Assembly: GCA_021732415.1 (NCBI GenBank)
Contig: JAKFVC010000161.1
Coordinates: 1 to 53,740, forward strand
Direction of reading: 5' to 3'
DNA: 53,740 nucleotides
Origin: Planctomycetaceae bacterium
GTDB taxonomy: Bacteria > Planctomycetota > Planctomycetia > Planctomycetales > Planctomycetaceae
Made by a program: the position numbers and the translations under genes. The notes beneath the pieces are model-generated. The model worked only from the letters and a program-made list of their open reading frames with translations, had not been told where the DNA came from and made no database searches. Shown here in pieces: positions 2,789-45,240 of this stretch (position 1 is the first letter of the stretch; every line of letters begins with the position of its first letter).

Positions 2789-2871
2789 GAGATCGATTCC
2801 AAGGCCAATGTGTCGTGCTAGTTCGATGGTGATTGATCAATTCGAACGAATGAATATTGCATCAAGGCACT

Positions 2872-3633
2872 TCAAAACTCCCCGACTGTCTCGTTTCCGG
2901 ACGCGGACATCAGAGCCCGGCGGGTATCGGCTGCTAAATTTACCGAAAGAAATCGCATCGTTCCGTCACCGAACAGTGCATGCATCCCCCCAACGTGATC
3001 GAGTTTTGCTTCCTTTCCGATACTCAACACTGGATTCTCGTCAGCATCTTGTGGCGACATCCAGTGGACTGCGCGATCCTGGGGCACTTCGATTGCCTGC
3101 AACGTATTGCTGCGTCCGTCGGTGATGTCGGAATATCGCCGGGGAGCGCCAGGGCGAATGATGCTGTTCGGCGTGACGACTGCCAGGTAGGTGGTATGGG
3201 TGGCGGGAACTTGCGAGGACGGACATTCATAAACCGAGACCCTGGTCGCGTACGCTTTCGCATTCACCGGGTCGTCCCACGGTTTCGACATGTCGATGGT
3301 ATTGTACAGGGCGAATTGGTCGAGAAAGGGCAGAATCATCGTCCGCCAACTATGCAGTGGCCTGCCATTCTTATCGGGCATGTACGCCGGAGGCAGGGCA
3401 CCGTAAGTGTCATGGTAATTTTGTAATGCCATCCCAATTTGCTTGAGATTGTTTTTGCATTGCGAACGCCGAGCCGCTTCTCGATTCTGCCGCACGGCGG
3501 GGAAGCTCATCGCCCACAACGTCGTGACGATTCCCAGTGCAAACAGCACCTGGACAATCCGATATGTCCAGCTCGTCTTTGGTGCGGACGGAGGGGCGAG
3601 TGAGTCCAAGTCACTATCGGGCGTGTCGCTCAT
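2872..3633 (-). CDS. DUF1559 protein without prepilin signal (tandem copy 2)
   Basis: The 253-residue paralogue has the same plan: a short acidic tail (MSDTPDSDLDSLAPP), one membrane segment (about residues 24-45), FPAVRQNREAARRSQCKNNL, and the H-X9-DG motif (HVGGMHALFGDG). The frame runs 13 codons further upstream, but MSDTP at 3633 matches the starts of the neighbouring copies and lies beside the conserved leader catgagatcgattccaagg (as seen on the + strand), so I start there. It lacks a prepilin cleavage site. The gaps to its neighbours are 83 and about 80 nt, so cotranscription is plausible. Function unknown. Confidence 0.88.
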   Translation of the reverse strand: MSDTPDSDLDSLAPPSAPKTSWTYRIVQVLFALGIVTTLWAMSFPAVRQNREAARRSQCKNNLKQIGMALQNYHDTYGALPPAYMPDKNGRPLHSWRTMILPFLDQFALYNTIDMSKPWDDPVNAKAYATRVSVYECPSSQVPATHTTYLAVVTPNSIIRPGAPRRYSDITDGRSNTLQAIEVPQDRAVHWMSPQDADENPVLSIGKEAKLDHVGGMHALFGDGTMRFLSVNLAADTRRALMSASGNETVGEF

Positions 3634-3713
3634 GAGATCGATTCCAAGGCCAACGTTTCGTGCTGTTTCCATCCCGGCTGATTAATTCGAACCGGCCAAT
3701 TGCATCCAGGCAC

Positions 3714-4469
3714 TCAAAACTCCCCAACCGTCTCGTTTCCCGTCGCTGACATCAGCGCCCGGCGAGTCTCTGCCGGCAAGTTCACGGACAGGAATCGAAC
3801 GGATCCGTCACCCAGCAGTGCATGAACGCCGCCTGAATGGTCCAGTTTTGTTTCTGGTCCGAAATTCAAGACCAGACTCTCGTCGGCGTCTTGTGGCGAC
3901 ATCCAGTGGACCGCGCGATTCGCAGGTACTTCGATCACGAACATGGTGTTGCTCAATCCGTCCGTGATCTCGGACATTTTGCGACCTTCAACCGGGCGCA
4001 TGGCGCTATTCGATGTCACAATCGCCAGATACGAGGTCTGGGCCGCTGAAAACTTGGGAGAAGGGCATTGATATACGGGTATCGCAGTCACGCAGGCCTT
4101 GGCGTTCGCTGGATCATTCCAGGGCTTGGACAGGTTAATGGTGTTGTAGAGTGGCGCCTGATCGATATACGGTAAAATCAACGTTCGCCAACTGTGCAGC
4201 GGTTTGCCGTTCTCATCTACGGTGTAAGCCGGCGGAAATTGACCATGCGCTTCATGGTAGTTGTGCAAGGCCAGTCCGATTTGCTTCAGGTTATTCTTAC
4301 ATTGCGATCGGCGTGATGCTCCGCGGGGCTGTCGTACGGCGGGCAACAAAAACGCCACCAACACTACAACGGTTCCGAGAGCTAAGATCGCGTCCCAAAT
4401 TGACAAGCTCCTTTTCTTTTTGGAAAGATCGCCGAGAGAGTGCACGATGTTATCCGGTGTGTCGGTCAT
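3714..4469 (-). CDS. DUF1559 protein without prepilin signal (tandem copy 3)
   Basis: This is a 251-residue paralogue. Its N-terminal tail ends KKKRSLS, followed by a hydrophobic segment and LLPAVRQPRGASRRSQCKNN, the remnant of a pseudopilin helix without the Gly-Phe-Thr-Leu-Ile-Glu cleavage region. H-X9-DG is intact (HSGGVHALLGDG), and the C terminus SATGNETVGEF nearly matches copy 2. The start at MTDTPDN (4469) has gggag about 10 nt upstream and aligns with the other copies; the frame itself opens nine codons earlier. Function unknown. Confidence 0.88.
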   Translation of the reverse strand: MTDTPDNIVHSLGDLSKKKRSLSIWDAILALGTVVVLVAFLLPAVRQPRGASRRSQCKNNLKQIGLALHNYHEAHGQFPPAYTVDENGKPLHSWRTLILPYIDQAPLYNTINLSKPWNDPANAKACVTAIPVYQCPSPKFSAAQTSYLAIVTSNSAMRPVEGRKMSEITDGLSNTMFVIEVPANRAVHWMSPQDADESLVLNFGPETKLDHSGGVHALLGDGSVRFLSVNLPAETRRALMSATGNETVGEF

Positions 4470-4513
4470 GAGGCGGAATCTCCCGGTGCTACACACAAGA
4501 TCTTGAGGCGTGT

Positions 4514-4577
4514 CGCCACGCTCGCCAGAGCGTGGGAATCTATGGTAAATCGCCCACGTTCTGGCGAACGTGGCTAC
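4514..4577. repeat. Inverted repeat between tandem DUF1559 copies (gccacgctcgccagagcgtgg)
   Basis: The arms gccacgctcgccagagcgtg (4515 onward) and cccacgttctggcgaacgtg (4554 onward) are complementary with two paired changes that preserve pairing. Each arm is itself a small palindrome around cgccag. It lies in the gap between copies 3 and 4. Confidence 0.8.
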
Positions 4578-4582
4578 GGCTG

Positions 4583-5344
4583 CTAATAGTCCCCAATGAC
4601 TTCGCCTCCTGCGACCGAAATGAGGGCTCGACGGACATCAGGCTTCATTTCCGCGGAAATAAAACGAACGACTCCGTCGCAGAAGAGTGCATGGACGCCA
4701 CCAACATGATCCAGTTTTGTTTCTGGTCCGATTCCCAGGACAAGATCCTCGTCGGCATCGAGCGGCGACATCCAGTGGACGGCGTGCTCGACGGGGACTT
4801 CGATCACCATCATCGTATTTCCCGGACCGTCGGATATTTCTCGTAGCTGTCGGCCTTCGGTTGGACGCAGGCAACTGTTCGATGTCACGATCGCCAGATA
4901 GGTTGTGTTTGTTTCCGACAATTTGGATGACGGGCACTGGTAAGCCCCGATCCGAGTTGCGAAGGCTTTCGCATTGGCCGGGTCATCCCAGGGTTTCGAC
5001 AAATCGAAGGTCTCGTAAAGTGATGCTTGATCGAGAAATGGCAGGATCAAAGTCCGCCAACTGTGTAGCCGCTTGCCATCCGCATCGACTATGTAAGCCG
5101 GAGGGAAGGCATTGTAAGTGTCATGATAGTTGTGTAATGCCAGCCCGATTTGCTTGAGATTGTTTTTGCACTGCGACCGGCGTGCAGGTTCTCGAGCCTG
5201 TCGTACGGCCGGCAACAGTAGCGCGCCCATCACCGCGATGATGCTGAGAATTGCCAGCACCTGGAAGAGCGGGAACTTCCAGCTCTTCTTCTGCTTGGAC
5301 GGATCGCCAAGCGAGTCCAGGATGTGATTGGGCGTGTCGCTCAT
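4583..5344 (-). CDS. DUF1559 protein without prepilin signal (tandem copy 4, first in order)
   Basis: The 253-residue protein is the promoter-proximal member of the four-gene row. Its tail is MSDTPNHILDSLGDPSKQKK. The membrane segment covers about residues 24-45 and is followed by LLPAVRQAREPARRSQCKNN. The C-terminal H-X9-DG motif is intact (HVGGVHALFCDG). In ordinary planctomycete DUF1559 proteins the region before the helix is a type IV prepilin leader; here it is a charged tail with no cleavage motif. All four copies share the context LHSWRT and a single internal Cys-Pro/Ser site (QCPSS here). Function unknown. Confidence 0.88.
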   Translation of the reverse strand: MSDTPNHILDSLGDPSKQKKSWKFPLFQVLAILSIIAVMGALLLPAVRQAREPARRSQCKNNLKQIGLALHNYHDTYNAFPPAYIVDADGKRLHSWRTLILPFLDQASLYETFDLSKPWDDPANAKAFATRIGAYQCPSSKLSETNTTYLAIVTSNSCLRPTEGRQLREISDGPGNTMMVIEVPVEHAVHWMSPLDADEDLVLGIGPETKLDHVGGVHALFCDGVVRFISAEMKPDVRRALISVAGGEVIGDY

Positions 5345-13100: not shown

Positions 13101-16100
13101 CGACAGTCGCACCGGACGATGTGAACCAGAATATCGCGATTCACTACTCATTCGGTACCGACCAGACCATCTCGAACAACATCATTGATATCGATGGTTC
13201 GGGGGTGAGCGATGGAGCCAACTTATCCAGTTCAGTCGCCATGCAATCGAACTCGGGTGGAGCGACCTCCTATGATGGCTTGCTGATCGACAACAACACC
13301 GTCAATGTGACGGGCACACTGAACGCACAGCAGGCGTCGTTCCGGGGTATCTGGGAAAACGGCAACTCGAGCCTCAGCGATATCACGGTCAGCAACAATC
13401 ACTTCAACAATCTGACTGGCTCCAATGGGGCCACGAACCTGATGCGAGCGTTCATCATTACGTCGCATTCCAGTTCGGGCACAACGGTACTCTACAGCGA
13501 TAACACCGTCAGCCGCGCGAACGTGGGCTTCCAATGGCTGAGTGGTGGCAATTTTGCCGGCAACGAGGCCGTGCTGTTGAACAACAACACGACGACCGGC
13601 ACTCAAACCAGCGTCCAGATTCAATCGAATGGATCTGCCGTCTTGACTGGCAACACATTTGATGGCATCGGCGGGACCAGCATCGGCGTGGATATTGCCG
13701 CTGGCTCATTGGGCACCGTGAATCAGAATGACATTTCGGGCACGAGCATCGGTGTCAACAATAGCGGTACATTGAGTGCCGCAAGCCAGAACTACATCCA
13801 CGATAATATCGGTGACGGGATTCGGTTGAATGTTGGTACCACATTTGTCGGTCCGATTTTTAACAACGATTTGTCTGGCAACTCAGGCTTTGCGATCAAC
13901 AACTTGACCGGGGGCGCGGTCAACGCGTCGGGTAATTACTACTTCTTCACCACGCAGGCAACAGTCGCCGCGAAGATTAACGGTATCGTCGACTACTCTC
14001 CGTGGCTGAATTTCAGCACAGACACGGAGCCGTTGTCGGCCGGTTTCCAGGGTGACTTCTCGTCGCTGAGCGTTTCTCAAAGCTCGCCGCAGCTCGGCGC
14101 GACCGGATTGATCCAGGAAGCCGTGAACCTGCTCGCCAATGGCGCGTTGACGGGCACCGCCCGAACGATCAAGGTTGATGGCGGAATCTACCTCGACGCG
14201 GCGAATCTGAATGTGCCGCTGACGATGGTTCTGGGCGGCAATGTCCGAGTTCCCGGTCTCGACAGCATTGTCGGCACGATTATTGACTTGCAATCCAATA
14301 CATTGACTCTGGGCGCGGGCAATGTTGACAACACATTGGCTGGGAACATTCAAGGGAGCGGTGGTCTGGTCAAACAGGGGTCGGCGATCCTGACGTTGAC
14401 CGGCACTGATACCTACACGGGAACCACTGCCGTCAACACCGGGACATTGCAGGTCGATGGTTCGACGACCTCGCCCACGTCGGTGTTTGGTACCTTGACT
14501 GGCTCCGGAACGATTGCGGCGGCCGTTTCGATTGAAAATGGCGGCGGCACGGTTTCTCCAGGAGGCAGCGGTACCGCCGTTCTCCATACTGGAGCATTGA
14601 CCGTCAGCATCGGGGCGACGTTTACCGCTCAAGTGAATGGGCGGATTGCCGGCACTCAGGCGGATCAGATTGCCACGACCGGTGTGGTGGATATCACCAA
14701 TGCGACCCTGGACGTGTCCGGCACCATTACCAGCCTGATCGGTCAGGTCATCACGCTGATCGACAACGGCAGCGGTAGCGCGGTGGTCGGGGAATTCAAT
14801 GGACTGCCTGAGGGTTCGACGGTGAACATCAACGGTGTTGATTTCACCCTGTCGTACCACGGGGGGACGGGGAATAATGACGTCACCCTGACGGAACCGC
14901 CGCTGGTCGTCAGCATCGACGATGTCTCCGTGAGTGAATCTGCGGGGAATATGGTCTTCAATATCAGTCTCGACAAGCCGCTGGATATTGACTTCACCCT
15001 GGATGTGACCTTCCAGGACGGAACGGCCACGGGCGGCGGTACCGACTACACCAGCACGACCCAGCACATCTTGATTACGGCCGGTGCTACGAGTGCCCAA
15101 GTCACAGTGCCCGTCACCAATGATGGCATTGTGGAAGGGACCGAAGACTTCACCGTGCATCTGAGCACGGCGACTGATCTGGGCGGGCGCGGTATCGATT
15201 TCAGCGATGTCGGAGAGGGTACGATCACCGACGACGATTTGGCAACCGTCTCGATTGCCAAGACGTTTGATGGAGCAGAAGGTGTAGTGCCCGTAAATGG
15301 GCAATTCACGGTCAGCCTCACCGCGGTCAGCTCGACCGACACCATCGTCACTTACGATATCAGCGGGACGGCCACGCCGGGTGCCGGGAACGACTACTCG
15401 GCTTTGAGCGGGTCAGTCACGATTCCCGCAGGACAGCTCAATGCAGTCATCAACGTGCCGGTTCTGAACGACACCATCGTGGAGGGAACTGAATCGGTCA
15501 TCGTCACTTTGACCGGATTCGGAGCACACGATCCCCAAATCACGTTGAGTGCCGCCACTTCTGACACAGTGAACCTCACGGACGATGACACCAATACGCT
15601 GCAGATCAACAGTCCCACGGTGACCGAAGGCGATGCGGGAACGAAAACGCTGACGTTTATCGTGACTTCGCCGACTGCGGTGGCTGGCGGCTTCACGGTC
15701 GCCTTCAATGTCGCGAACGTGAACACCAACGGCAGCGACTACACTGTCGTCACCAGCAGCCCGCTGTCGTTCACTGGAACGGCGGGTGAAACGCACTCGA
15801 TCACGATTAATGTGAATGGCGACACGATCGTTGAAGGGGACGAGACGCTCTCGGTCACTTTAAGTACCGTGACGCCGGTGGCCCCGGTTCCGGCCAGCAG
15901 CATTGTCACAGGTGCCGTGGGAACGGGCACGATTACGAACGACGATTCCAATACGCTGACGATCAGCAGCCCCATCATGGCTGAGGGGAATGCCGGGATG
16001 ACCACGATGACCTTTACGGTGACTTCGCCGACTGCGGTCCAAGGTGGATTTACGGTGGCCTTCAATGTGGCCAACGTCAGTACGGATGGAGCGGATTTTA

Positions 16101-19100
16101 CCGTCGTCACCAGCAGCCCGCTGACCTTCACAGGTGCGGCCGGCGAGACGCAAACGATCATCGTGAATGTCAACGGCGATACGATTGTGGAAGGGGACGA
16201 GACCTTCAGTGTGACCTTGGACACGGTCACTCCCGTCGCTCCGGTCCAGGCCGCGAGTATCGTCACGGGGGCCGTCGGCACCGGGACGATCACGAACGAT
16301 GACTCGGACACGCTGACTATCGACAGTCCCATCATCACCGAAGGCGATGCTGGAACGACCACCATGACGTTCACGGTCACTTCGCCGAATGCGGTGGCGG
16401 GTGGCTTTACGGTCGCCTTCAACGTCGCCAATGGCACTGCGAGTGCTTCCGATTATACGCTCGTCACCAGTAGTCCGTTGACGTTCTTGGGGAATGCCGG
16501 TGAAACCCAGTCCATTACCATCAATGTGACTGGTGATTTGATTGTCGAAGCGAACGAGACGTTGACCGTGACCTTGGGAACGGTTACTCCAGTCACACCT
16601 GTCGCGGCCGCCAGCATTGTGACGAGTGCGATCGGGACCGGTACCATCACCGATAATGATTCAGCGACCGTTTCGGTCGCGAAGATCACCGACGGTGCCG
16701 AGACCAACACGCCGACCAACGGCAAGTTTACGGTCACGCAGTCGGCGGTCAGCAGTACCGACACGATCGTCAGCTACTCGATCACGGGCACGGCAGCAGC
16801 CGGCAGCGATTATACGTCGCTCTCCGGAACTGTGACGATTCCCGCCGGTCAGACTTCTGCCGATATCAACGTTGCCGTCCTGACCGACAACATCGTCGAG
16901 GCGACCGAGACTGTCATCGTGACTCTCACGGGAATCAGCGCTGGTGACCCGCAGATTACGGTGAATGCGACTCCGGCTACCGTGAATATCACCGACAACG
17001 ACACCGCGACGTTCACCATCGACAATGTGACGGTGAATGAAGCGGCGGGGACCATGGTCTTCACTCTGGCGACCGACAAGGCCCTCGACATCGATGTCAT
17101 CATCAACGTGACATTTAGTGGAGGCACGGCGACGGGTGGCGGGACCGACTACGTGAGCACCACGCAGTCGATCACCTTCCTGGCGGGCCAGCTCAGCAAG
17201 CAAGTCAGTGTCGCCATCACGGACGACAACATTGTTGAAGCGACCGAAACGTTCGGTGCGACGCTCAGTACCAATGCAGTGTTGGGTGGCCGCAGCGTCA
17301 ATCTCAGTGATACCGGCACGGGAACCATCACCGACAACGACACGGCGAACTTCACGATCAACAACGTGACGGTCGGTGAAGGAGCGGGGACGCTGGTCTT
17401 CGATCTGGTGACCGACAAGGCTCTGGATATCGATGTGACCATCACCGTCACGTTTGCCGATGTCACGGCCACCGGTGGTGGTACAGACTACACCAGTACG
17501 ACTCAACAGATTACCTTCCTGGCCGGTCAGCTGAGCAAGCAGGTCAGTGTCGCGATCAGCAACGATAGCCTGGTGGAAGGGACCGAATCCTTCACCGCGG
17601 CACTCAGCTCCACAACGCCGCTGGGTGGTCGAGTGATCAACGTCGCCGACACCGGCACGGGAACGATCACCGACGATGACACAGCGACGGTGACGATTGC
17701 CAAGATCACCGACGGGACCGAAACGCCGACCAATGGCAAGTTCACGGTGACCCAGTCCGCGGTCAGCACGACCGACACGATCGTGACCTACTCCATCACG
17801 GGAACGGCGACCGCCGGCAGCGATTACACGACGCTGACGGGAACCGTAACGATTCCCGCCGGCCAGACAACCGTTGACATCAATGTTGCCGTGCTGACCG
17901 ACAACGTCGTTGAAGCGACCGAGACGGTCATTGTGACTCTTACGGGGATCAGCTCGGGTGATCCGCAGATCTCTGCGGATGCCACGCCTGCCACTGTGAA
18001 TATCACCGACAACGACACCGCCACATTCACCATCGACAGTGTCACGGTGAATGAAGCGGACGGAACGCTGGTCTTCACTCTCACCACCGACAAGGTGCTG
18101 GATACCGATGTCACGATCGACGTGACGTTCGGCAGCGGCACCGCAACGGGTGGCGGAACGGACTATGCCAGCACGACGCAGTCGATCACCTTCCTCGCTG
18201 GTCAATCCAGCAAGCAGGTGAGTGTCGCCATCACCAACGACAACATTGTCGAAGGGACCGAAACGTTTGCCGCCTCACTGAGCACCGCGACGCCGTTGAA
18301 TGGCCGCAGTGTCAACTTGAGCGATACCGGAACCGGGACCATCACCGACAACGACACCGCCACCTTCGCGATCAACAATGTCACGGTTGGCGAAGGGGAC
18401 GGGACGCTGGTCTTCGATCTGGTCACCGACAAGGCGTTGGATATCGACGTGACGATTAACGTCACGTTTACCGATGTTTCAGCGACTGGCGGCGGAACCG
18501 ATTACACCAGTACGACTCAGCAGATCACGTTCCTGGCCGGCCAGACTTCGAAGCAAGTATCGGTCGTCATCAACGACGATAATCTTCTGGAAGGGACCGA
18601 AACCTTCACTGCGGCACTCAGTTCGACAACGCCGCTGGGTGGCCGAGTGATTGATGTCTCCGATACCGGCACGGGAACGATCACCGACAACGACACGGCG
18701 ACGGTTTCCATCGCCAAGGTCACTGACGGAACGGAATCCAATTCGCCGACGAATGGCAAGTTCTCCGTCACGCTGAGTGCCCCCAGTTCCACTGATACTG
18801 TGGTGAATTACACCGTCACGGGGACAGCGACCTCCGGGACTGATTACACGGCACTGACGGGATCGGTCACGATTCCCGCCGGCCAGACGACGGCCGATAT
18901 CGATGTGGCGGTTCTCAATGACGGGGACGTCGAAGATCTCGAAACCGTCATCGTGACGCTGGATGGCCTCGGGGCTCACGATTCCGACATCACGCTGGAT
19001 GCGAACCCGACAGCGACGGTCAGCATCTCTGACGACGATCAACTGGTCATCACCAGTGTGCCGTCGGCGAGTGTCCCCGAAAACACGCTGACTTCGACAG

Positions 19101-28379: not shown

Positions 28380-28425
28380 CAGTGGTTCTCCCTTAAATAC
28401 CAATTTCGATAGCAGAAGACTACCT

Positions 28426-28553
28426 GGGAGGGCGAGGCTCCCGCCGAGCCTAAAGCGACCGTCAGGTCGGAGTCCGCCGGAGGCAAAATTAGCAGCCTCC
28501 GGCGGTCGCCGAGCTAAAGCTCGTCTTAGGCTCGGCGGGAGCCTCGCCCTCCC
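28426..28553. repeat. GC-rich hairpin family J, copy 1
   Basis: The arms gggagggcgaggctcccgcc...gagcctaaagcgacc and their complement enclose internal pairing arms around gtccgccggaggc. The same element recurs at 34494-34620, 36437-36575, 43445-43559 and 45091-45217. It lies in the gap between two divergent genes. The stretches 28554-28685 and 28777-29016 show nothing I can name. Confidence 0.92.
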
Positions 28554-28685
28554 ATTGCGCTCACAAACTGAGCCACGGACCCATCCGTGTCGGTTTATAT
28601 TTGATTCTACCTCAAGGAGTTACGTTTTTGAACCGCGATTTGAGCCGATTTTCGCCAGTGACTTGATCCCGGCAACTGGGGAGTA

Positions 28686-32238: not shown

Positions 32239-34482
32239 ATGATGCCCGTTCTCTCTCGCTCCATGCAGTCTCGTCTGTTTTTTCTTTCCGGCTTCAGCGG
32301 TCTGGTCTATCAGATCGTCTGGCTGAGGTTGGCATTTGCCGCGTTCGGCGTGATCACGCCCGTCATCTCGCTGGTCTTGTCGGTCTTCATGCTCGGCTTG
32401 GGAGCCGGTTCGTGGCTCGCCGGGTCAATGCTGCGTCGGTGGACATGGTCGCGCCGGGGTGCTCTGCGAGCCTACGCTGCCGCCGAGTTCCTCATCGGTG
32501 TCGGAGCACTGGCGGTCCCCATGCTGTTCACCTGGGGTGAGAACCTGCTGTTACCCGCCGGGCAAACCGATTCTGTCCAGTATTTGGGATCCTCGGCCGC
32601 GATCATTTTGTTTGCGATGGTCCCGTTCTGCCTGTGCATGGGAACCACGTTCCCCTTCATGATGCAGGCCATTCGGGGAGACCGGGGCTCGGAAGGCGGG
32701 TTCAGCTACCTCTATCTGGCCAACGTTCTCGGCGCACTGGCGGGAACGCTCCTGACACCCGTCGCTCTCGTTGAACTGCTGGGCTTTCATGGTACTTTGG
32801 TGATTGGCATGCTCGCCAACTGGTGCGCGGCAGCGGTCGCTTTTCGATTGAGCCTGCAGCCCGACGACGGCGCGGTCGTCGAAGCCAAGCCGCAATTGCC
32901 GATCGTGTCCGATCCGCCACGAGATTCCTGCGGGATTTGCTCTCGCTTCGCATTGTCGATTCTGTTTACAACCGGCCTCGCCTCGATGGGGATGGAAGTC
33001 GTCTGGACTCGGGCCTTCGCGCCGATCCTGCTGACTCAGGTGTATTCATTCGCCGGTCTGCTGTTTGCGTATCTCCTCGCCACATGGTGCGGTTCGATGC
33101 TCTATCGGCGGCATCTGGCACGGCACAAGTTGGTATCGGATCACGTACTCCTCGCGCTCCTGGCACTGGCCGCCTTTGGTCAGATCCTGGCGGCAGATCC
33201 CCGCATCATATTGCCTCAATATTGGATGCGCATTGCGTGGCTGTTGCTCAGTATCGTCCCGTATTGTGCGATCCTCGGCTACCTGACTCCCAAGCTGATC
33301 GACGAGCACGCCCTGGGACGCCCGGATGCAGTCGGACATGCCTACGCAGTGAATGTCCTGGGCTGCATCATCGGACCATTGCTGGTCTCTTATGTCCTCC
33401 TGCCGATGTGCGGCTTGCAGTGGGCGGGCATCGTTCTGGCAATTCCGCTCTGGATGATGTCGGGCCGGTCGCTGGTATGGCTCAAGCAGGCTGTCAGCAG
33501 CGAACCGCGTCGATCGCAATGGTTACCGCGAATTGCCTGGTCGGCGGCCACCTTGTGCGGGATCGCCGCCGCCACCGTCGGCACCAGCTACGAAGATCGC
33601 TTCGCCGCCCAGGGAGCCCGGGTCTATCGCGATCATACGGCGACGGTCATTGCCGGATTTATCGATGGCCGCAAGGACCTGCTCGTCAACGGCAAGTCGA
33701 TTACCGCGTTCACCCCCAGCACCAAGCTGATGGCCCACCTGCCCCTCGCCCAGTTGCCGCATCAGCCCAAGTCGGCGCTCGTCATCTGCTTCGGGATGGG
33801 AACAACCTACCGGTCACTGCTGAGTTGGGGAATCGATACAACCGCCGTGGAACTTGTCCCCAGCGTCAGCGATGCCTTCGGCTACTATTTCCCCGATGCC
33901 GAGGAAGTCCGCCGCAATCCGCTCAGCCACATCGTGATCGATGACGGCCGACGCTTTCTGCGACGTACCAGCCAGCGGTTCGATGTAATCACTCTCGACC
34001 CGCCGCCCCCTGTGGAAGCGGCTGGCTCCAGCCTGTTGTACTCGCGCGAGTTCTACCAGCTAATCAAGCCGCGCCTCGCCGAGGGCGGCATCCTGCAGCA
34101 GTGGTATCCCGGTGGCGACTTCAAGACGCTTCAAGCCATCCTGCGCTCGGTTCTGGCCGAGTTCCCACATGTCCGGGTCACCCGCGCGTACGATCATTGG
34201 GGATACCACATGCTGTGCTCGATGCAGCCGCTCCCCGAACGCACAGGAAGCGAACTTTATGCACGCCTGCCAGAGGCGGCCCGACGGGATCTCGTCGAGT
34301 GGTCAACAGATCGCACTGGAGAATCGCTCCTGGATGCGGTGATCGCGTCGCCGGTTTCCGCGGCCGAAGTGATCAGCGATGATCCGCTGGTGATCATTAC
34401 CGACGATCGTCCCTATAACGAGTACTACTTGCTCCGCAGAATCTGGGAGTGGTGGACTGGGACTTACGTCATCGTGTTGTAA
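32239..34482 (+). CDS. Membrane-fused spermidine synthase-like protein
   Basis: The 747-residue protein has two parts. Residues about 10-490 contain around 14 hydrophobic segments, opening with FFLSGFSGLVYQIVWLRLAF, the usual start of membrane proteins fused to polyamine synthases. Residues about 510-690 form a Rossmann methyltransferase-like domain with a degenerate nucleotide-binding loop (VICFGMGTTYRSLLSWG), the acidic VELVPSV, IDDGRRFL and TLDPPPP near 587, then LYSREFY. These match spermidine-synthase-like domains, but the substrate may not be a polyamine. No speD or other polyamine gene is nearby. Two overlapping ATGs exist (32239 and 32242); no strong ribosome-binding site is visible. 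Confidence 0.85.
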   Translation: MMPVLSRSMQSRLFFLSGFSGLVYQIVWLRLAFAAFGVITPVISLVLSVFMLGLGAGSWLAGSMLRRWTWSRRGALRAYAAAEFLIGVGALAVPMLFTWGENLLLPAGQTDSVQYLGSSAAIILFAMVPFCLCMGTTFPFMMQAIRGDRGSEGGFSYLYLANVLGALAGTLLTPVALVELLGFHGTLVIGMLANWCAAAVAFRLSLQPDDGAVVEAKPQLPIVSDPPRDSCGICSRFALSILFTTGLASMGMEVVWTRAFAPILLTQVYSFAGLLFAYLLATWCGSMLYRRHLARHKLVSDHVLLALLALAAFGQILAADPRIILPQYWMRIAWLLLSIVPYCAILGYLTPKLIDEHALGRPDAVGHAYAVNVLGCIIGPLLVSYVLLPMCGLQWAGIVLAIPLWMMSGRSLVWLKQAVSSEPRRSQWLPRIAWSAATLCGIAAATVGTSYEDRFAAQGARVYRDHTATVIAGFIDGRKDLLVNGKSITAFTPSTKLMAHLPLAQLPHQPKSALVICFGMGTTYRSLLSWGIDTTAVELVPSVSDAFGYYFPDAEEVRRNPLSHIVIDDGRRFLRRTSQRFDVITLDPPPPVEAAGSSLLYSREFYQLIKPRLAEGGILQQWYPGGDFKTLQAILRSVLAEFPHVRVTRAYDHWGYHMLCSMQPLPERTGSELYARLPEAARRDLVEWSTDRTGESLLDAVIASPVSAAEVISDDPLVIITDDRPYNEYYLLRRIWEWWTGTYVIVL

Positions 34483-34493
34483 TTCGAGTCGAT

Positions 34494-34620
34494 GGGAGGG
34501 CGAGGCTCCTGCCGAGCCTAAGGCGACCGAAGGTCGGCGTCCGCCGGAGGCATTGCATCCAGCCTCCGGCGGACTCCGAGCTAAAGCTCGCTTTAGGCTC
34601 GGCGGGAGCCTCGCCCTCCC
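34494..34620. repeat. GC-rich hairpin family J, copy 2
   Basis: It fills the 158-nt space between two convergent stop codons and matches copy 1 closely over both arms (gggagggcgaggctcctgcc ... ggcgggagcctcgccctccc). The position suits a bidirectional terminator. Confidence 0.92.
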
Positions 34621-34640
34621 ATCCACTCGATCCCGCTCTG

Positions 34641-36436: not shown

Positions 36437-36575
36437 GGGAGGGCGAGGGACCCAGAGGGTACCCCGCCGAGCCTAAAGCGAGCTTTAGCTCGGAGTCCGC
36501 CGGAGGCCGAATGTCATGCCTCCGGCGGACGCCGACCTGCGGTCGCTTTAGGCTCGGCGGGAGCCTCGCCCTCCC
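36437..36575. repeat. GC-rich hairpin family J, copy 3 (hybrid)
   Basis: The left end (gggagggcgagggacccaga) matches the 24281-24377 variant, while the rest (gagcctaaagcgagctttag ... ggcgggagcctcgccctccc) is ordinary family J. It separates two genes on the minus strand. Confidence 0.9.
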
Positions 36576-36583
36576 AACTAATA

Positions 36584-38815
36584 TCAGCCATCGCTGATCC
36601 CGAAATACTGACGCGAATCCACTCGCATCGCTGCGTCATGCGGGCACGCGTAAACACAAGACGGCCCGTGATCTCCCAGCGAACTGCACAGGTCGCAGAC
36701 GACCGCCTTCTGAGTGAATTCCTTGAGCACCACCCCGGTTTCCAGTTGAAACAAACTCGCCGGTTCCGAGTTCCCCAATTCCCGATCGCTCATATGAATC
36801 GAACCGTAGGGGCACTGATCGGCACACAACTGGCAACCGATGCAGTGATTGCGGATCCGAATTTCACCGTTGTCGCCACGGGAAATTGCGCCCACCGGGC
36901 AACCAATCATGCAGACGGGATCGAGACAACTCCGGCAGGTGACCGGCACGAGGTATTTGTCGAACCGCGGACCATCCAGATACAGCCGGTTGCGTCCGTC
37001 CGCGTGAGCGTCCACGCACGCCTCGACGCACGCTCCGCAGCGCGTACATTTCTCCAGATCGATCAACATCAATTGCTGACCTTGCACCAACCCCAGCTTC
37101 TCGAATTCGACCGTTTGACTCAGCAGCTTGCGAACGGGAGTGGCGCTGGGCGGACGGTTTTCTACCAGATTCGCGATGAGATCATCCACAATATCTTCTA
37201 GCGTGCGACGAAACGCGGGTGATACGGACGCCAGATCGTCCCGATCCAGCTTCACCAGTTCGACGCGGGACGGAGTCGCTTCCAGGTCCTGCTTGAGTTG
37301 CTCCTGGCCTCGGTCATGCTGATCAAACGCCAGGCACGAGGCACTACGCGGCTGGCCCTTCAGCAGGCCGATTTCCCCCAGGATCTCACCTTTTCCAAGA
37401 TATTTGAGAGTCCTGGCCGACTGGTGCTCGCGTCTGGGCAGCCCGTGCATGCTGGCCGCTTCCAACAGCAGGCGATGAAACAGGCGCGAACGCAACTGTG
37501 ACCAGTCTTTGACTTTCTCTGGAAAATCAGCGGTCGCTTCTTCAATCGCCAGAATATCCAGCGTGGCGACCATTGCAGACCGCTTCTCGCCGAACGCAGT
37601 GCTTAGCTCACCCGCGCTAATGAAGCGGTTGAGTTCCGCAACGATCCGTTTCTGAGTCGCCTCGTCAGCCTTGGTCCCGCTGGCGATGGAGGTCAGCAAC
37701 TCGCGAATCTCGGGCACCAATTTAGACCAGACCCGGCCGGTCAGCGATTGAGGACGTTTCTCGCCGGCGACCAATTCCTGGGCCAGGCTGTCCCAGGCGA
37801 TCCGTTTGCGTTCATCGGCGCTAAATAGGGCCGAGGCGTGCTTGACAACCTTAACCATGCCGCTACGGATCAGGTACATGCAGTCGGACTCTTCGTGCTC
37901 ATCAAAAATGATCTTGCCGGCTTGGAAATCAACCAATTCCAGACGGGGCTGCAGGTCTTGGAATTCCGCGTCCGAAAGCTCCTTAAAAACCGACAGTTGC
38001 CGGACCTGCTTGTCGAGGACTCGCGTACGGTAGATGGCGTCGTTCCGCGCCTTATACGTCGGATCCTTATAGAGCATGTCCAGGACATTGCGCAGAAACT
38101 CGAGCATGTAGCAATCTTGCTCGACGATGACCGTGGCTGAACGTGGTGCCCGGTTCAGGCAGCTCATCTCGCCGAAGATTTCCTTTTCATGCAGTGGCGC
38201 TTCGAGGGTCCGTGTATCGAGTGACATCATGCCGTCGACGGGAATGAAGGCGGGCGTTTCTTCTCCTTTGGCCGGACGTCGCAGCCAACTCGTCAGCCGA
38301 TGCAGCAATCCCCGGCGGGGGCGATCGGGATTCAGCGAAACCAGCAATTTGACCTTAGCGACGGTCGCCAGTTGATCGTGCTGAGTGGCGTCGGTGGCTT
38401 GAATGAGTGCCGCTTGACGCTTCGTAAACTTCTGAATCTCGTCCTGATACCGCTGTTGCAGCGACAGTAATCCGGGACGTGTCAGATTCTGAAAGCGTAC
38501 GGGAACATCAGCCGCTTCGCTGTCTTGTAACACTTTCTCGATAAAGTCGACTTGCTGTTGCCGCAACGCCACGACGTCATGTGCGCTCAGGATATAGAAG
38601 GCCGAAGCTCCCGCTTCCCCCTGTTGGCACATGATCTGATCGGGAGTGCATTTCCGCAGGACGGTAGCGCCTGGGAATTTGTATAGATTCGGAACTCGTT
38701 TCAAATCTTGAATGAGCGACAAGCAGCCCAATTCAGGATCGGTCAACCGTTCATCAAGCGGGCCAACCTCAAAAACTTCTTCCACCGGAAGATTAGCTTC
38801 ACGTACTGTGGCCAT
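36584..38815 (-). CDS. Cyclic nucleotide-binding / four-cluster ferredoxin fusion protein
   Basis: The 743-residue soluble protein joins two cNMP-binding folds to a DmsB/HybA-like electron-transfer domain. The first fold starts near residue 40 and reaches its phosphate-binding cassette at 214 (FGEMSCLNRAPRSAT). The second starts near 274 (LSVFKELSDAEF) with its cassette at 479 (LGEIGLLKGQPRSAS). Both keep the Glu and Arg needed for nucleotide contact, but each fold is interrupted by about 130 residues of helical insertion. From residue 590, four Cys motifs (CTRCGACVEAC, CRSCLDPVCMIGCP, CIGCQLCADQCP, CDLC-x10-CVYACP) would bind four [4Fe-4S] clusters. No signal peptide or catalytic oxidoreductase subunit is present. 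ATG 38815 has aaggga 7 nt upstream; a TTG two codons earlier is rejected. A role as a nucleotide-gated electron carrier or redox-sensing receptor is inference. Confidence 0.9.
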   Translation of the reverse strand: MATVREANLPVEEVFEVGPLDERLTDPELGCLSLIQDLKRVPNLYKFPGATVLRKCTPDQIMCQQGEAGASAFYILSAHDVVALRQQQVDFIEKVLQDSEAADVPVRFQNLTRPGLLSLQQRYQDEIQKFTKRQAALIQATDATQHDQLATVAKVKLLVSLNPDRPRRGLLHRLTSWLRRPAKGEETPAFIPVDGMMSLDTRTLEAPLHEKEIFGEMSCLNRAPRSATVIVEQDCYMLEFLRNVLDMLYKDPTYKARNDAIYRTRVLDKQVRQLSVFKELSDAEFQDLQPRLELVDFQAGKIIFDEHEESDCMYLIRSGMVKVVKHASALFSADERKRIAWDSLAQELVAGEKRPQSLTGRVWSKLVPEIRELLTSIASGTKADEATQKRIVAELNRFISAGELSTAFGEKRSAMVATLDILAIEEATADFPEKVKDWSQLRSRLFHRLLLEAASMHGLPRREHQSARTLKYLGKGEILGEIGLLKGQPRSASCLAFDQHDRGQEQLKQDLEATPSRVELVKLDRDDLASVSPAFRRTLEDIVDDLIANLVENRPPSATPVRKLLSQTVEFEKLGLVQGQQLMLIDLEKCTRCGACVEACVDAHADGRNRLYLDGPRFDKYLVPVTCRSCLDPVCMIGCPVGAISRGDNGEIRIRNHCIGCQLCADQCPYGSIHMSDRELGNSEPASLFQLETGVVLKEFTQKAVVCDLCSSLGDHGPSCVYACPHDAAMRVDSRQYFGISDG

Positions 38816-38939: not shown

Positions 38940-39022
38940 GTAGCCTGCGTAGCAGAACTCGCCAGGAGTTCTGGCCGCACTGGTCCCCCCCCGGAGTCTT
39001 GGCGACTTCGGCTACGCTACGG
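38940..39022. repeat. Palindromic sequence between cNMP/ferredoxin and hflK-like genes
   Basis: A short hairpin, cagaactcgccaggagttct, lies at 38953-38973, flanked by ccgtagcc and ggctacgctacgg, which are partly complementary. The distal arm overlaps the stop codon of the hflK-like gene (39017-39019). Confidence 0.55.
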
Positions 39023-39967
39023 ACGGTCCCTCCGTTGGATCGTCAAATCAATCGGCTTCTGGCCATCCACATAAATCTGCCGCGCGAGTTTCGGCAGCAA
39101 CTCTTCAAGGGTCGTCCAATACAACCGCTGCATGGTCATCTCGCGTACCTGGGCTCGAGCATCGGTTCCCGGCACGGCCGCCTTGTCGAATTGATCGACC
39201 AGTGCATCGAAACGGCTGGCCTCGGCCGTGGCGGCAGACAATGCCTGGGCTCGAGTCGATTCGGCCTGGTCTCGCAATTGGCTGGCTTGCGCGTTTGCCT
39301 GGGCGAGCAGCCGTTCGGACATCGTCTGGGCTTCGCTCATCAGGCGTTCTTTTTCGGCTCGGGCATTGGAGACATCCAGAAAGGCCTGTTTCACCGGGAC
39401 GGGCGGACGAACATCTGCCAGCGTGACGTCTTCCACGAAGACACCCAGCCCCTGGATGCCGGCCAGACGCCGGGCTTCCGCCGTCAACAATTGACGCAGG
39501 GCATTCAGCCCCAGCGGGTGGACATAATCCACGCCACTGCGGGCCACCACATCGGCAACCAGCGATTGTGTCAGGAACCGCAAATGCCGGTCGGGGCTCT
39601 CATGGTGCAGGAGAAATTGACGCGGATCATCAATCCGAAATTGCACGCTGATCTGTAAATTGAGAATGTTCTTGTCACCGGTCAGGTACTCGGACTGGCG
39701 ACTGGCGGCGGGCGGTTTCAAGAAATCGCTGTCGCTGACTTCGTCCGCGGTTCCCAATCCCACGGTGACCGTGCGGGTCTCGTTCAAGTTGACTCGATCG
39801 ACCTGACTCATCGGCCAGGGCCAGCCAAAATGGAGACCGCTGCCCACCAACTGCGACTGAGCCCGCCCGAACGAACGCACCACGGCCTGCTCGTTGCCGC
39901 GGACAACATAGAGACCGCTCAACGCATAGAGGCCAACCAACAAGCTCACCAGCAGAAGACGCTTCAT
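39017..39967 (-). CDS. hflK: HflK-like SPFH/band 7 membrane protein
   Basis: The 316-residue protein has an N-terminal membrane anchor (MKRLLLVSLLVGLYALSGLY) and an SPFH domain (about 25-200), then a coiled coil (ARAEKERLMSEAQTMSERLL ... ARAQALSAATAEASRFDALV) typical of HflK. In Escherichia coli, HflK and HflC form a large cage around the FtsH protease and modulate membrane-protein turnover; no ftsH is in this window. It lacks the long Gly/Pro-rich N-terminal tail of E. coli HflK. The frame opens 56 codons upstream, inside the preceding gene, but ATG 39967 has ggggag at 6 nt and starts the anchor directly. Its ATG overlaps the upstream gene's TGA (ATGA), implying coupled translation. Confidence 0.85.
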   Translation of the reverse strand: MKRLLLVSLLVGLYALSGLYVVRGNEQAVVRSFGRAQSQLVGSGLHFGWPWPMSQVDRVNLNETRTVTVGLGTADEVSDSDFLKPPAASRQSEYLTGDKNILNLQISVQFRIDDPRQFLLHHESPDRHLRFLTQSLVADVVARSGVDYVHPLGLNALRQLLTAEARRLAGIQGLGVFVEDVTLADVRPPVPVKQAFLDVSNARAEKERLMSEAQTMSERLLAQANAQASQLRDQAESTRAQALSAATAEASRFDALVDQFDKAAVPGTDARAQVREMTMQRLYWTTLEELLPKLARQIYVDGQKPIDLTIQRRDRP

Positions 39968-41043
39968 GGCGTGCTCCCCGTAACGGGAGCTTCTGTGGTA
40001 CGTGGCTTGGGCAGAGAATTCGTCTTGGACGGCAGGCCCTCGATCAACAATTTGAGGAATGGGCTGGATGCCGACAAGACCAGCGTCGTCTGATTCGTCA
40101 GGACTTTCTGGTAGCTCTCCAGGTTGCGGAGCCACGCGTAGAACTCGGGGTCGCGAGCGTGGGCCGTATTGCGAATCTGCAATGCCTCGGCCTCGCCCGC
40201 GGCGCGAATGGCGGCCGCTTCGCTGTTCGCCTTGGCCATGATTTCGGCACTGCGGCGCTTGGCCTGGCTTTCGATGACCACTTTTTCGGCCTCGCCGGCG
40301 CTGCGATACCGCTGGGCGATTTTGTCGCGTTCTTTCCGCATCCGTTCATAGACCGCGAACAGGTTGCCTTCAGGCAGATTGATCCGCTGAATCCCGATGT
40401 CCAGGATCTCGACCCCCAGCCGTGACGTCAGCGAGGCCGCTTCATCGGGCTCCTGCCGGACCTGTTTCTGAACGCGGTTCGTCAGATCGGCCAGCGGACT
40501 GGCACCTTGTGGGCCAGCTTCCGAATCGGTGGAGACCAGCAGGTCGCTCAACGCGAGACGGCCCATCTCTTCCGACATGACCGAACGCAGGCGGGTATCC
40601 AGGCGAGCTTCCGTCGTCGGAATTCCCCCCAGCCCGCGATAGAACTTGACCACGGGCCGATCGGCAAAGTTCTTGTCGGCCCCCGTCGAGGCCGCGATGC
40701 GCCAGCACAAGTACGTGTCGACAATGATGTTCTTGCGGTCGCGGGTAAACATCTCCCGGCCCCGCGGATCGAACAACTGCAGTCTCCGGTCGAACCGACG
40801 CACGGTTTCGACCGGCCACGGAAGCTTGAAGTGCAGCCCCCGGTCCGACTGTGCCAGATCGACCTGATCGTACACGGCAGTAATGACCCCAAACCGTTCC
40901 ACAATGACGAGTTCAGTTTCATCGACGAAGACGACAGACCCGACCACCAAAGCAATCAACAAACTGACAAATACGAACTGACCGATCACCTGCCAGGCAC
41001 GGGTGGAAATCAGAGGTCGAGTTTCGGCATCGGAAGCGGGCAT
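39964..41043 (-). CDS. hflC: HflC-like SPFH/band 7 membrane protein
   Basis: The 359-residue protein has one membrane helix (about residues 20-41), an SPFH domain (VDETELVIVERFGVI...GLHFKLPWPVETVRRFD) and the HflC signature LGVEILDIGIQRINLPEGN followed by VYERMRKERDKIAQRYRSAG and an Ala/Glu-rich coiled coil ending DPEFYAWLRNLESYQK. It is the upstream partner of the hflK-like gene (4-nt overlap), so the order is hflC-hflK, opposite to E. coli. A C-terminal tail of about 45 residues extends past the SPFH region. The start ATG 41043 has only a weak ribosome-binding site. Confidence 0.9.
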   Translation of the reverse strand: MPASDAETRPLISTRAWQVIGQFVFVSLLIALVVGSVVFVDETELVIVERFGVITAVYDQVDLAQSDRGLHFKLPWPVETVRRFDRRLQLFDPRGREMFTRDRKNIIVDTYLCWRIAASTGADKNFADRPVVKFYRGLGGIPTTEARLDTRLRSVMSEEMGRLALSDLLVSTDSEAGPQGASPLADLTNRVQKQVRQEPDEAASLTSRLGVEILDIGIQRINLPEGNLFAVYERMRKERDKIAQRYRSAGEAEKVVIESQAKRRSAEIMAKANSEAAAIRAAGEAEALQIRNTAHARDPEFYAWLRNLESYQKVLTNQTTLVLSASSPFLKLLIEGLPSKTNSLPKPRTTEAPVTGSTP

Positions 41044-41167
41044 GTCACGAACAATTTCTCAGCAGCGTCGATCAATAAAAATGGCCAGTCTCTCCAGAGT
41101 ACCGACCAGCCCGCGGGATGTCCAAGTCGAAGCTGACATTCACCTGCTGCGGGGGCATTTGGAAACC

Positions 41168-41402
41168 GCCCCCGTTGGGCTTGTCCCAACGGAGCGCTGA
41201 CTGGTCGGCTACCCAGCAACGAGTTTTGCAGAATTCTCAACCTTTACGTCTCCGCTGCCCCCTGCCGCCAGCCAGTCGCTGCTGTAACTGCGGTTCGCTC
41301 ACGGCGGCAGGGGGCAGCGGAGACCACGCGTTGAGGGTCCAGAACATTTCTCTCTAGTAGCTGGCCAGTCAGCGCTCCGTCGGGACAAGCCCAACGGGGG
41401 CG
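41168..41402. repeat. 235-bp palindromic element K, left copy
   Basis: The outer arms (gcccccgttgggcttgtccc ... acaagcccaacgggggcg) and inner arms (ctccgctgccccctgccgcc ... ggcggcagggggcagcggag) are complementary. Read in reverse complement, the copy at 42691-42924 aligns from end to end with this one, including non-palindromic parts such as gcgagttttgcagaattctc. The remaining 41403-41733 contains nothing I recognise. Confidence 0.88.
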
Positions 41403-41733: not shown

Positions 41734-42660
41734 ATGAAAAATACGAGCGGATCTCGCAGGCAGGCGTTTACCTTGATCGAGTTGCTGGTCGTGATTGCGA
41801 TTATCGCGGTGCTGATCGCACTGCTGTTGCCGGCAGTGCAGCAGGCGCGTGAGGCCGCTCGTCGGACGCAGTGCAAAAACCACTTGAAGCAGTGGGGGTT
41901 GGCGCTGCACAACTACCACGACACCCACAGGGCGTTCCCGTTTGCCGCGACCAATATCCCACGGCACACGTACGTCGTCAGCCTGTGGCCCTACATGGAT
42001 CAGGCGGTGATGTCCAACCAGTACAGCTTCAATGTTGGTTTTTGGGAACCACCGAACTGCGTGAGCAACACGTTCAATGGCGTGGTGGCCAAGCAATTGG
42101 CGACGTACTTCTGCCCTAGCGACAAAAGTGGATTTTGGACGGCCGATCAATACTGGCGGTCGCGCGGCAGCTATGTCGTCAACTGGGGCAACGTCACTCG
42201 GCCCCAGATTGCGGCTCCCTCCAGTCTGGCGCCATTTGGTTACATCAACGATAATCCCGCAACTCCGCGAGTCGGACGGATCAACGAATTTACCGACGGG
42301 ACGTCGAATACGCTGATGATGTCGGAAATCCTGATGTCGAAGAATGACGGGGATTATGACGTTCGCGGAGATGTCCTCAATGATGACCCGAATTTCGTGT
42401 CTTTTCAGTTCATGACCGTCAATACGCCGAACAGCAAAAACCCCGACACGAACAACTACTGCAGCACGACGGCGATCGACTCGCGGATGCCTTGTGCGCC
42501 GGGCGGGAATCAACAGGCCATCGCCCGGAGCCGTCACGTCGGCGGCGTCCATGTCCTGATGGGCGACGGGGCAGTGCGGTTTGTCAGTGACAGTATCAGC
42601 TTCGTTACCTGGCAAGCATTGGGGTCGATGAACGGTGCCGAGACCTTCGGTGATTTCTAA
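41734..42660 (+). CDS. DUF1559 pseudopilin-like protein (canonical prepilin N terminus)
   Basis: The 308-residue protein has a type IV prepilin leader (MKNTSGSRRQAFTLIELLVV), the helix end LLLPAVQQAREAARRTQCKN and H-X9-DG (HVGGVHVLMGDG). Cleavage would fall just before Phe-Thr-Leu-Ile-Glu, placing the mature N-terminal helix in or across the inner membrane. The C terminus is GAETFGDF. The start at 41734 has aagg about 9 nt upstream; the frame opens at TTG 41644 but that would bury the leader. A small lipoprotein follows, a frequent partner of DUF1559 genes in planctomycetes. The gene is bracketed by two oppositely oriented copies of element K. Confidence 0.92.
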   Translation: MKNTSGSRRQAFTLIELLVVIAIIAVLIALLLPAVQQAREAARRTQCKNHLKQWGLALHNYHDTHRAFPFAATNIPRHTYVVSLWPYMDQAVMSNQYSFNVGFWEPPNCVSNTFNGVVAKQLATYFCPSDKSGFWTADQYWRSRGSYVVNWGNVTRPQIAAPSSLAPFGYINDNPATPRVGRINEFTDGTSNTLMMSEILMSKNDGDYDVRGDVLNDDPNFVSFQFMTVNTPNSKNPDTNNYCSTTAIDSRMPCAPGGNQQAIARSRHVGGVHVLMGDGAVRFVSDSISFVTWQALGSMNGAETFGDF

Positions 42661-42690: not shown

Positions 42691-42924
42691 GCCCCCGTCG
42701 GGCTTGTCCCGGCGGAGCCCTGACTGGTCTGCTACTGGGGAGAAACGAATTGGATCATCAACGCGTGGTCTCCGATGCCCCCTGCCGCCGTGAGCGAACC
42801 GTTGTAATAGCGGCGACTGGCCGGCGGCAGGGGGCATCGGAGATGTAACGGTTGAGAATTCTGCAAAACTCGCTGTTGGGTAGCTGGCCAGTCAGCGCTC
42901 CGTCGGAACAAGCCCGACGGGGGC
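42691..42924. repeat. 235-bp palindromic element K, right copy (inverted)
   Basis: This is the inverted copy of 41168-41402. It starts about 30 nt after the stop codon of the DUF1559 gene. Both the outer arms (gcccccgtcgggcttgtccc ... acaagcccgacgggggcg) and the inner arms (gatgccccctgccgccgtg ... ggcggcagggggcatcgg) are kept. Confidence 0.88.
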
Positions 42925-42965
42925 GATTCATCATCGGTTTTGTTAGAGATTCTTAGTCGAAGAAA

Positions 42966-43437: not shown

Positions 43438-43444
43438 CGCGGCT

Positions 43445-43559
43445 GGGAGGGCGAGGCTCCCGCCGAGCCTAAAGCGACCGCAGGTCGGCGTCCGCCGGAG
43501 GCCTCCGGCGGTCGCCGAGCTAAAGCTCGTGTTAGGCTCGGCGGGAGCCTCGCCCTCCC
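43445..43559. repeat. GC-rich hairpin family J, copy 4
   Basis: It begins 8 nt after the lipoprotein stop codon. This is the shortest copy, because its central spacer is lost: gtccgccggaggcctccggcgg is almost a perfect palindrome here. It likely folds into a long hairpin at the mRNA 3' end. Confidence 0.92.
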
Positions 43560-43671
43560 AGACTGGCCTCACCATGTCAATTGTTTCTTGCCTCACATAT
43601 GCAGGTGTGCGAGAATGCGTCAACAGGGTTTGATGCGTTTCCCGGCTTGGCGGTCACTTGAGGTGCTCGGA

Positions 43672-45039: not shown

Positions 45040-45090
45040 CACCCAATTTCCCGTCGCTCACCCGAGAGCGAGTTTGAAAGTCCCGTTTTT

Positions 45091-45217
45091 GGGAGGGCGA
45101 GGCTCCCGCCGAGCCTAGTACGACCGCAGGTCGGCGTCCGCCGGAGGCCCGTCTTTATGCCTCCGGCGGACGCCGAGCTAAAGCTCGTGTTAGGCTCGGC
45201 GGGAGCCTCGCCCTCCC
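45091..45217. repeat. GC-rich hairpin family J, copy 5
   Basis: It lies between the DUF1501 and molybdopterin-protein genes. One arm has gagcctagtacgaccg where other copies have gagcctaaagcgaccg. The position after a stop codon matches the other copies. Confidence 0.92.
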
Positions 45218-45240
45218 ATGTCACGCCCTGAGAGTTCATC

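Follow-up and report, generated by a model that had tools for sequence, protein, structure and literature searches.

The window analysed here, a stretch of 53,740 nucleotides (positions 1 to 53,740 of contig JAKFVC010000161.1, assembly GCA_021732415.1) from a Planctomycetaceae bacterium, carries on its minus strand a gene for a protein that joins two cyclic-nucleotide-binding (CNB) folds to a ferredoxin domain with four [4Fe-4S] cluster motifs (Table 1). Each CNB fold is split by an insert, and the order along the chain is first part of fold 1, insert 1, second part of fold 1 with cassette 1, first part of fold 2, insert 2, second part of fold 2 with cassette 2, and ferredoxin. The open reading frame (ORF) begins with ATG at 38815, a TTG two codons ahead being a possible alternative, and its stop ends at 36584. 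Membership of this protein in an electron-transfer module is well supported; we propose that cyclic AMP (cAMP) or cyclic GMP (cGMP) may gate that module.

Table 1. Coordinates of the gene and of its parts in the window
Feature	Residues	Position	Strand	Basis
Whole gene, tandem CNB plus four-cluster polyferredoxin	743 aa	36584..38815	minus	ORF, Pfam, hydropathy
First CNB fold, part 1, first strands	45-76	38588..38683	minus	model secondary structure
Insert 1, mostly helical	77-189	38249..38587	minus	model, compact-row alignment
First CNB fold, part 2, with cassette	190-250	38066..38248	minus	Pfam, model, dN/dS 0.007 and 0.008
Phosphate-binding cassette 1, FGEMSCLNRAPRSAT (E216, R225)	214-228	38132..38176	minus	conservation in relatives
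Second CNB fold, part 1	270-326	37838..38008	minus	model, fold alignment
Insert 2, helical	327-467	37415..37837	minus	model, alignment, tree
Second CNB fold, part 2	468-552	37160..37414	minus	model, fold alignment
Phosphate-binding cassette 2, LGEIGLLKGQPRSAS (E481, R490)	479-493	37337..37381	minus	conservation in relatives
Four-cluster [4Fe-4S] ferredoxin domain, 16 Cys	580-735	36611..37078	minus	Cys conservation, PDB match

Pfam finds cNMP_binding over three stretches of the protein (E 3.6e-22), with a PF00027 score of 78.6 bits against a cut-off of 27.5, and several Fer4 models over their cut-offs; hydropathy gives no transmembrane stretch. An earlier, sequence-only reading had described one chain with two cyclic-nucleotide folds and four [4Fe-4S] motifs, a description borne out by the ORF, Pfam, the cassettes and the 16 Cys. 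The ferredoxin forms the C-terminus and is the sole output domain that Pfam sees. A CRP-like or CRP-FNR transcription regulator was considered and rejected, since no helix-turn-helix family occurs among the Pfam matches up to E 0.1. The gene is present in a single copy in the 9.87 Mb, 98% complete genome, the sole other match being weak (E 0.028) and confined to the ferredoxin part.

A scan of a genome collection returned 447 related stretches; the best 80 of the 447 were kept, and the loci of 79 relatives were named (L numbers below). By record title most belong to Planctomycetota, with a few from Verrucomicrobiota, Acidobacteriota and Gammaproteobacteria. A chance fusion or assembly artefact was rejected because CNB-type and ferredoxin-type stretches share one ORF in most of the 79 loci, across several phyla. 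The exceptions are L076 and L078, which match the window protein in the ferredoxin part only (Pfam recovered the CNB folds of L076), and L065, split in two ORFs, whose higher-scoring piece was used for residue counts. Relatives in the PDB match the ferredoxin and the CNB folds separately, none spanning both among the 60 of 105 matches listed.

The Glu and Arg that contact the nucleotide had been read in both cassettes, and the sequence and the counts in relatives agree. In the first cassette E216 is kept in 77/79 and R225 in 74/79; in the second, E481 in 67/79 and R490 in 66/79 (one scan pattern includes two Fe-S cysteines, and the counts for Glu 216 and the Cys are slightly favoured by the scan, those for Arg not). 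A structure model was built from an alignment of 50 of the 80 family rows, these being the 79 relatives and the window protein; its mean predicted local distance difference test score (pLDDT) is 81.7, and it places strands of each CNB fold on both sides of the insert. The earlier question whether the split folds close around their cassettes has an affirmative answer for the second fold (about residues 258-557, around the insert), which aligns to the CNB domains of CAP, HCN and SthK with Z 16-17 and a root-mean-square deviation (rmsd) of 1.5-2.5 Å over 122-132 residues; several of these targets are nucleotide-bound, such as cAMP-bound HCN2. The first fold is covered solely in tandem matches to PKA/PKG, and residues 219-221 of its cassette have pLDDT under 50. 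On these sequence features the CNB folds likely bind cAMP or cGMP. Four matches to class III cyclase domains over the cut-off were found in the window's genome.

The sequence-only reading had also placed about 130 residues of inserted helix in each fold. This describes the second insert, which is helical and about 136 residues longer than in compact relatives (141 columns in the window protein vs 5-8 residues in 29 compact rows; pLDDT mostly 85-98). It overstates the first, where 113 columns compare with 44-68 residues in 24 of the 29 compact rows, so that the surplus is roughly 45-70 residues; here pLDDT is 85-98 over residues 81-160 and 56-75 over residues 161-200. In a midpoint-rooted tree of 79 rows (window protein included, L065 left out), insert 2 measures 131-299 residues in 50 rows and 5-8 in the remaining 29. 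All 50 long rows sit in one group of 52 (Shimodaira-Hasegawa-like approximate likelihood ratio test 99), and the history of the insert needs three changes, for instance one gain and two losses. Because many compact relatives lack insert 2 and keep the cassettes, it appears dispensable for the general job of the CNB folds.

Ratios of non-synonymous to synonymous substitution rates (dN/dS) were taken between the window gene and two sisters, L003 and L033. They are 0.11 and 0.09 for the whole gene and 0.03 and 0.02 for the Fe-S domain; residues 190-250, with the first cassette, have the lowest values (Table 1) of the seven stretches compared. Insert 2 gives 0.12 and 0.11 and insert 1 gives 0.21 and 0.12, and with values of 0.11-0.21 the inserts too are constrained, though less.

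The Cys motifs of the ferredoxin domain lie at residues 590-600, 627-639, 658-668 and 707-724; 14 of the Cys are kept in 79/79 relatives and the last two in 78/79. The motifs had been assigned to the DmsB/HybA type: all four are complete, and the closest Fe-S relatives belong to the HycB/HydN/AegA kind, not to DmsB/HybA in particular. The best PDB match of this part is HycB3 (7qv7_A, E 9.1e-17) of hydrogen-dependent CO2 reductase, subunit 2 of Escherichia coli formate hydrogenlyase also being among the best, and the NCBIfam families HydN (E 2.1e-15) and AegA (E 2.7e-16) match with scores far under their cut-offs. A subunit of a molybdopterin oxidoreductase was rejected, since no molybdopterin or hydrogenase catalytic gene occurs among the six Pfam-scanned window neighbours or the three recurrent neighbour families (rarer neighbours were not all scanned). 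In nine relatives (L036, L038, L040, L041, L049, L051, L052, L056 and L070) some 165-215 residues lie between cluster regions three and four; the window protein, unlike these, has a short link there.

Those three recurrent families, c1, c2 and c3, emerged when the genes neighbouring the 79 loci were clustered. Family c1 is cytochrome c7-like, with 10 CXXCH motifs in 43/56 rows; the remaining rows are cut by a contig end or, at eight loci, divided between two ORFs, one with four haems and the other with six or eight. The c1 of the window's genome has one N-terminal transmembrane stretch. Family c3 is of the cytochrome c554 type with 4-5 haem motifs, or 3 in some compact lineages. Family c2 consists of membrane proteins, about 270-310 residues long in the compact form. 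It carries two H-X13-H pairs, H88/H102 (51/52 rows) and H574/H588 (47/52), and in a model of the compact form, with pLDDT 91.6, these pairs lie on two helices (40 selected rows were used for the c2 structure alignment). Judged by its helices, its His pattern and its weak Pfam matches, c2 is a probable dihaem cytochrome b, in which each of two haems would have two His ligands. The loop between the His-bearing helices ranges from about 120 to over 600 residues (e.g. L012 10287-12821, L117 1938-3740); the c2 of the window's genome has a repetitive linker rich in Pro, Ala and Lys there.

At 66 of the 79 loci at least 3 kb lay downstream of the gene, within fetched flanks of up to 8 kb. Both c1 and c2 occur at 56 of these 66, always on the gene's strand, as counted with profiles made from neighbours of the same loci; one further locus has c2 alone and one c3 alone. 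The c2 ORF begins at most 400 nt past the gene in 46/66. A whole-genome search for c2 in nine genomes, those of the eight partnerless loci and of L003, where the contig ends after the gene, found it encoded elsewhere in eight; in the ninth, an acidobacterium (L074), none was found at E 1e-10. The sequence-only reading had seen no catalytic partner and had pictured a free soluble receptor. The lack of a partner is true of the window alone, the genome and the family having c2 and the multihaem c1, and the picture of a free receptor is not supported. Homologues always encoded with a classical oxidoreductase would have refuted that reading; this applies only in part, since the recurrent partners are electron-wire proteins and not a catalytic oxidoreductase.

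Co-occurrence was evaluated in 150 genomes of the order, those listed being labelled same genus or same family. The protein is present in 72/150 (E<=1e-20), and c2 (E<=1e-15, a threshold picked after inspecting the table) in 73/150, namely all 72 protein-bearing genomes and one more, in which c2 lies at a contig end adjoining c1. With a genome-search profile of 19 rows, c1 (E<=1e-20) is found in 71 genomes, 70 of the 72 and the same extra one. Relaxing to E<=1e-10 gives c2 in 79/150, among which six genomes have weak matches (1e-12 to 1e-13) and lack the protein at 1e-20, and at 1e-10 the profile A1 matches 109/150 genomes, the extra matches inspected being weak and mostly in the ferredoxin part. 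Two sister genomes in the sample (G131, G135) are apparently the same as the genomes of L033 and L003, with c2 in identical places, and so add no evidence. The co-occurrence is strong, though not independent, evidence for the module.

In the window's genome contig C256 carries c2 with c1 next to it, and C296 has a c3 homologue close to its end, in orientations consistent with a single c2-c1-c3 cluster. The window gene itself is flanked downstream by a gene for an S51 peptidase and upstream by two SPFH (Band_7) genes. The latter, HflK/HflC-like by look, overlap each other at 39017-40069 and 39964-41043 on the minus strand, about 200 bp from the gene; by eye the pair also occurs in L003, and it is a possible new operon partner in the window's genus.

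On balance, and with somewhat better than even confidence, we read the protein as the cytosolic subunit of a transmembrane electron module that sends electrons through its clusters to c2, c1 and c3 and is gated by cAMP or cGMP. Electrons from the cytosol would enter the four [4Fe-4S] clusters of the ferredoxin and from there reach c2, whose b-type haems would sit in the membrane; c2 would hand them to the membrane-anchored decahaem c1 in the periplasm, which would then feed further multihaem cytochromes such as c3. Binding of cAMP or cGMP to the tandem CNB folds would, by way of the long helical inserts, open or close the electron flow or the docking to the membrane partner. The domains, conserved residues, modelled second CNB fold, gene neighbourhoods, genome co-occurrence and cyclase domains are observed in the data; we infer the topology, the binding of haem by c2, the binding of nucleotide and its gating effect, and the direction of flow.

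The donor may be indicated by neighbours in relatives. Directly upstream of the gene in L078 is a flavin/NAD/2Fe-2S reductase gene, and neighbour clustering places relatives of this reductase at four other loci, two of which have it on the opposite strand. Because a reductase gene adjoins or lies near the gene, in distant relatives only, outward flow with NAD(P)H as donor is favoured as the putative arrangement. An NDH-2 with a C-terminal cNMP-binding domain is encoded near the module in seven loci (L048, L050, L053, L054, L057, L059 and L064); an eighth NDH-2 gene in the cluster, in L076, is without the CNB domain. A homologue in the window's genome (C258:131-1714) aligns over residues 3-532 of 548. 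At L078 (13765-16765) a multihaem cytochrome gene adjoins that of a barrel-like protein with an outer-membrane look and no Pfam match, similar genes occur in L071 and L076, and a porin-cytochrome conduit is possible at these three module loci.

Several observations weigh against the proposal of a gated transmembrane module. For family c2 the fold searches gave nothing significant, the best Foldseek E being 0.41; in VIA-align its alignments to cytochrome b561 (Z 6.8) and STEAP (Z 7.3) are below a meaningful level, with unrelated proteins scoring Z 8-9, above both; and its Pfam matches are under cut-off (Ferric_reduct E 0.0011 in one protein and 0.025 in another, none in two). None of c1, c2 and c3 is found at 8/66 loci, and the c2 elsewhere in the genome of L046, an assembly shared with L044, might work with a different copy of the gene. 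None of the three genomes of the window's genus has the partners next to the gene. The sampled genomes are related, so the Fisher value for co-occurrence overstates independence. Among the residue counts, the scan pattern EKEIFGEM includes E216 and favoured relatives that keep it, and the second cassette is less kept, with Glu missing in 12/79 and Arg in 13/79. Several dS values exceed 1, and the dN/dS ratios are therefore rough.

The gaps in the second cassette also speak for the idea that the CNB folds bind no cyclic nucleotide at all and act as docking or dimerisation modules, or hold another ligand, the protein then carrying electrons ungated within this module. FNR, CooA and KCNH channels are known examples of CNB folds that have another ligand or none, and the long inserts could serve as arms for docking a partner. 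The first cassette argues the other way, with its Glu in 77/79 and its Arg in 74/79 relatives and its region under the lowest dN/dS of the seven stretches, as do the cyclase domains in the genome; we regard this explanation as unlikely, though it deserves to be taken seriously.

Gated flow was one of two options that the sequence-only reading had offered. It is the likelier of the two, since the second fold closes, the cassettes are kept and the four-cluster ferredoxin is complete. The other option, a redox-modulated sensor, would have the signal run in reverse, the redox state of the clusters altering nucleotide affinity in a sensor or buffer for which electron flow is not essential. It draws on the presence of both functions on one chain and on the place of the gene in the window's genus, away from cytochrome genes and beside the two SPFH genes. 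Electron transport is favoured instead by the four complete clusters and by the presence of c2 and c1 in nearly every genome that has the protein, and Pfam shows no output domain except the ferredoxin, which makes this option improbable. The same neighbourhood raises the thought that in the window's genus the separated gene now has another role, together with the upstream SPFH pair, and has stopped working with the b- and c-type cytochromes: the pair is just upstream on the same strand in the window and, by eye, in L003, and c2 is on a different contig from the gene in 3/3 genomes, in assemblies that are fragmented. Every cassette and cluster residue is kept in the window protein, however, and its genome still has genes for c2, c1 and a c3 homologue; c2 lies apart from the gene in other genomes too, and the spacing of about 200 bp to the SPFH gene also tells against such a role, to which we give little credence.

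Other parts of the window hold repeats. A dispersed inverted-repeat element of about 115-146 nt occurs in at least five places (28410-28555, 34477-34622, 36463-36577, 43444-43561 and 45074-45219), several copies lying between presumed genes and one directly past the end of the CNB-ferredoxin gene. An inverted repeat with 238-nt arms (41164-41401 and 42691-42928, 87% complementary) flanks a gene with DUF1559 and an N-methylation motif (41755-42660), and the two together could be a mobile or duplicated unit. Long direct-repeat arrays at 15211-19032 and 2030-5174, whose spacings include about 340 and 845 nt and whose repeats are 60-82% alike, suggest large repeat proteins or duplicated genes.

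If the proposed gating is true, a respiratory wire under the allosteric control of cAMP or cGMP would tie electron flow directly to second-messenger signalling. In Shewanella the link of cAMP to anaerobic respiration is transcriptional, through Crp. Tentatively, and with less than even confidence, the family could represent a class of bacterial electron wires switched at the protein level, the messenger binding the carrier itself and not acting via gene expression. On this tentative reading, with the CNB-fused NDH-2 present in several relatives and in the window's genome, one messenger may set the entry of electrons along with their exit. The family is common in the order (72/150 sampled genomes) and present in Verrucomicrobiota, Acidobacteriota and Gammaproteobacteria by record title. 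It offers a ready target, with single genes whose partners are fixed and with two residues to test in each sensor.

Every part of the module but c2 belongs to a known kind. Nucleotide sensors in an electron-carrying subunit with its own b- and c-type cytochrome partners are not apparent in the titles, abstract beginnings and passages searched, a scope that left most subscription papers and preprints outside. Three of the listed papers (PMC12319191, PMC2206050 and PMC12419801) contain a cyclic-nucleotide term together with an Fe-S term. The regulatory subunits of PKA/PKG and the CNB domains of CRP/HCN share the fold and the Glu and Arg of the cassette, and PKA/PKG also the tandem arrangement; here, unlike in those proteins, each fold is interrupted by a helical insert, and the output is an electron carrier in place of a kinase, channel or DNA-binding domain. 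When both folds are aligned to PKA/PKG tandem domains the rmsd is 9.9-15.6 Å, so the packing differs from theirs or is unreliable. Four-cluster ferredoxin subunits of the HycB/HydN/AegA/DmsB kind have 16 Cys in four motifs, as in the window protein. Unlike them, it carries two fused CNB folds, and the partner genes that recur with it encode multihaem cytochromes and a membrane protein in place of a molybdopterin or hydrogenase subunit. The NDH-2 with a C-terminal CNB domain is likewise a redox enzyme fused to a CNB domain, differing as a flavoenzyme with one CNB and, by Pfam, no Fe-S domain. Verrucomicrobial porin-multihaem clusters are described in PMC5615132, whose main text has no word starting with 'cyclic'. 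CymA, CbcL/MtrH/MtoC and ImcH, as described in PMC6295460, from whose main text the terms 'cyclic nucleotide' and '4Fe-4S' are absent, belong to inner-membrane modules in which membrane proteins hand electrons to periplasmic multihaem c cytochromes. The present module would resemble them if c2 is a haem protein: c2 has two H-X13-H pairs though no significant fold or family match, and c1 is decahaem in 43/56 rows. It differs in that its presumed b-type and its c-type parts are separate chains, accompanied by a dedicated cytosolic Fe-S subunit with nucleotide sensors.

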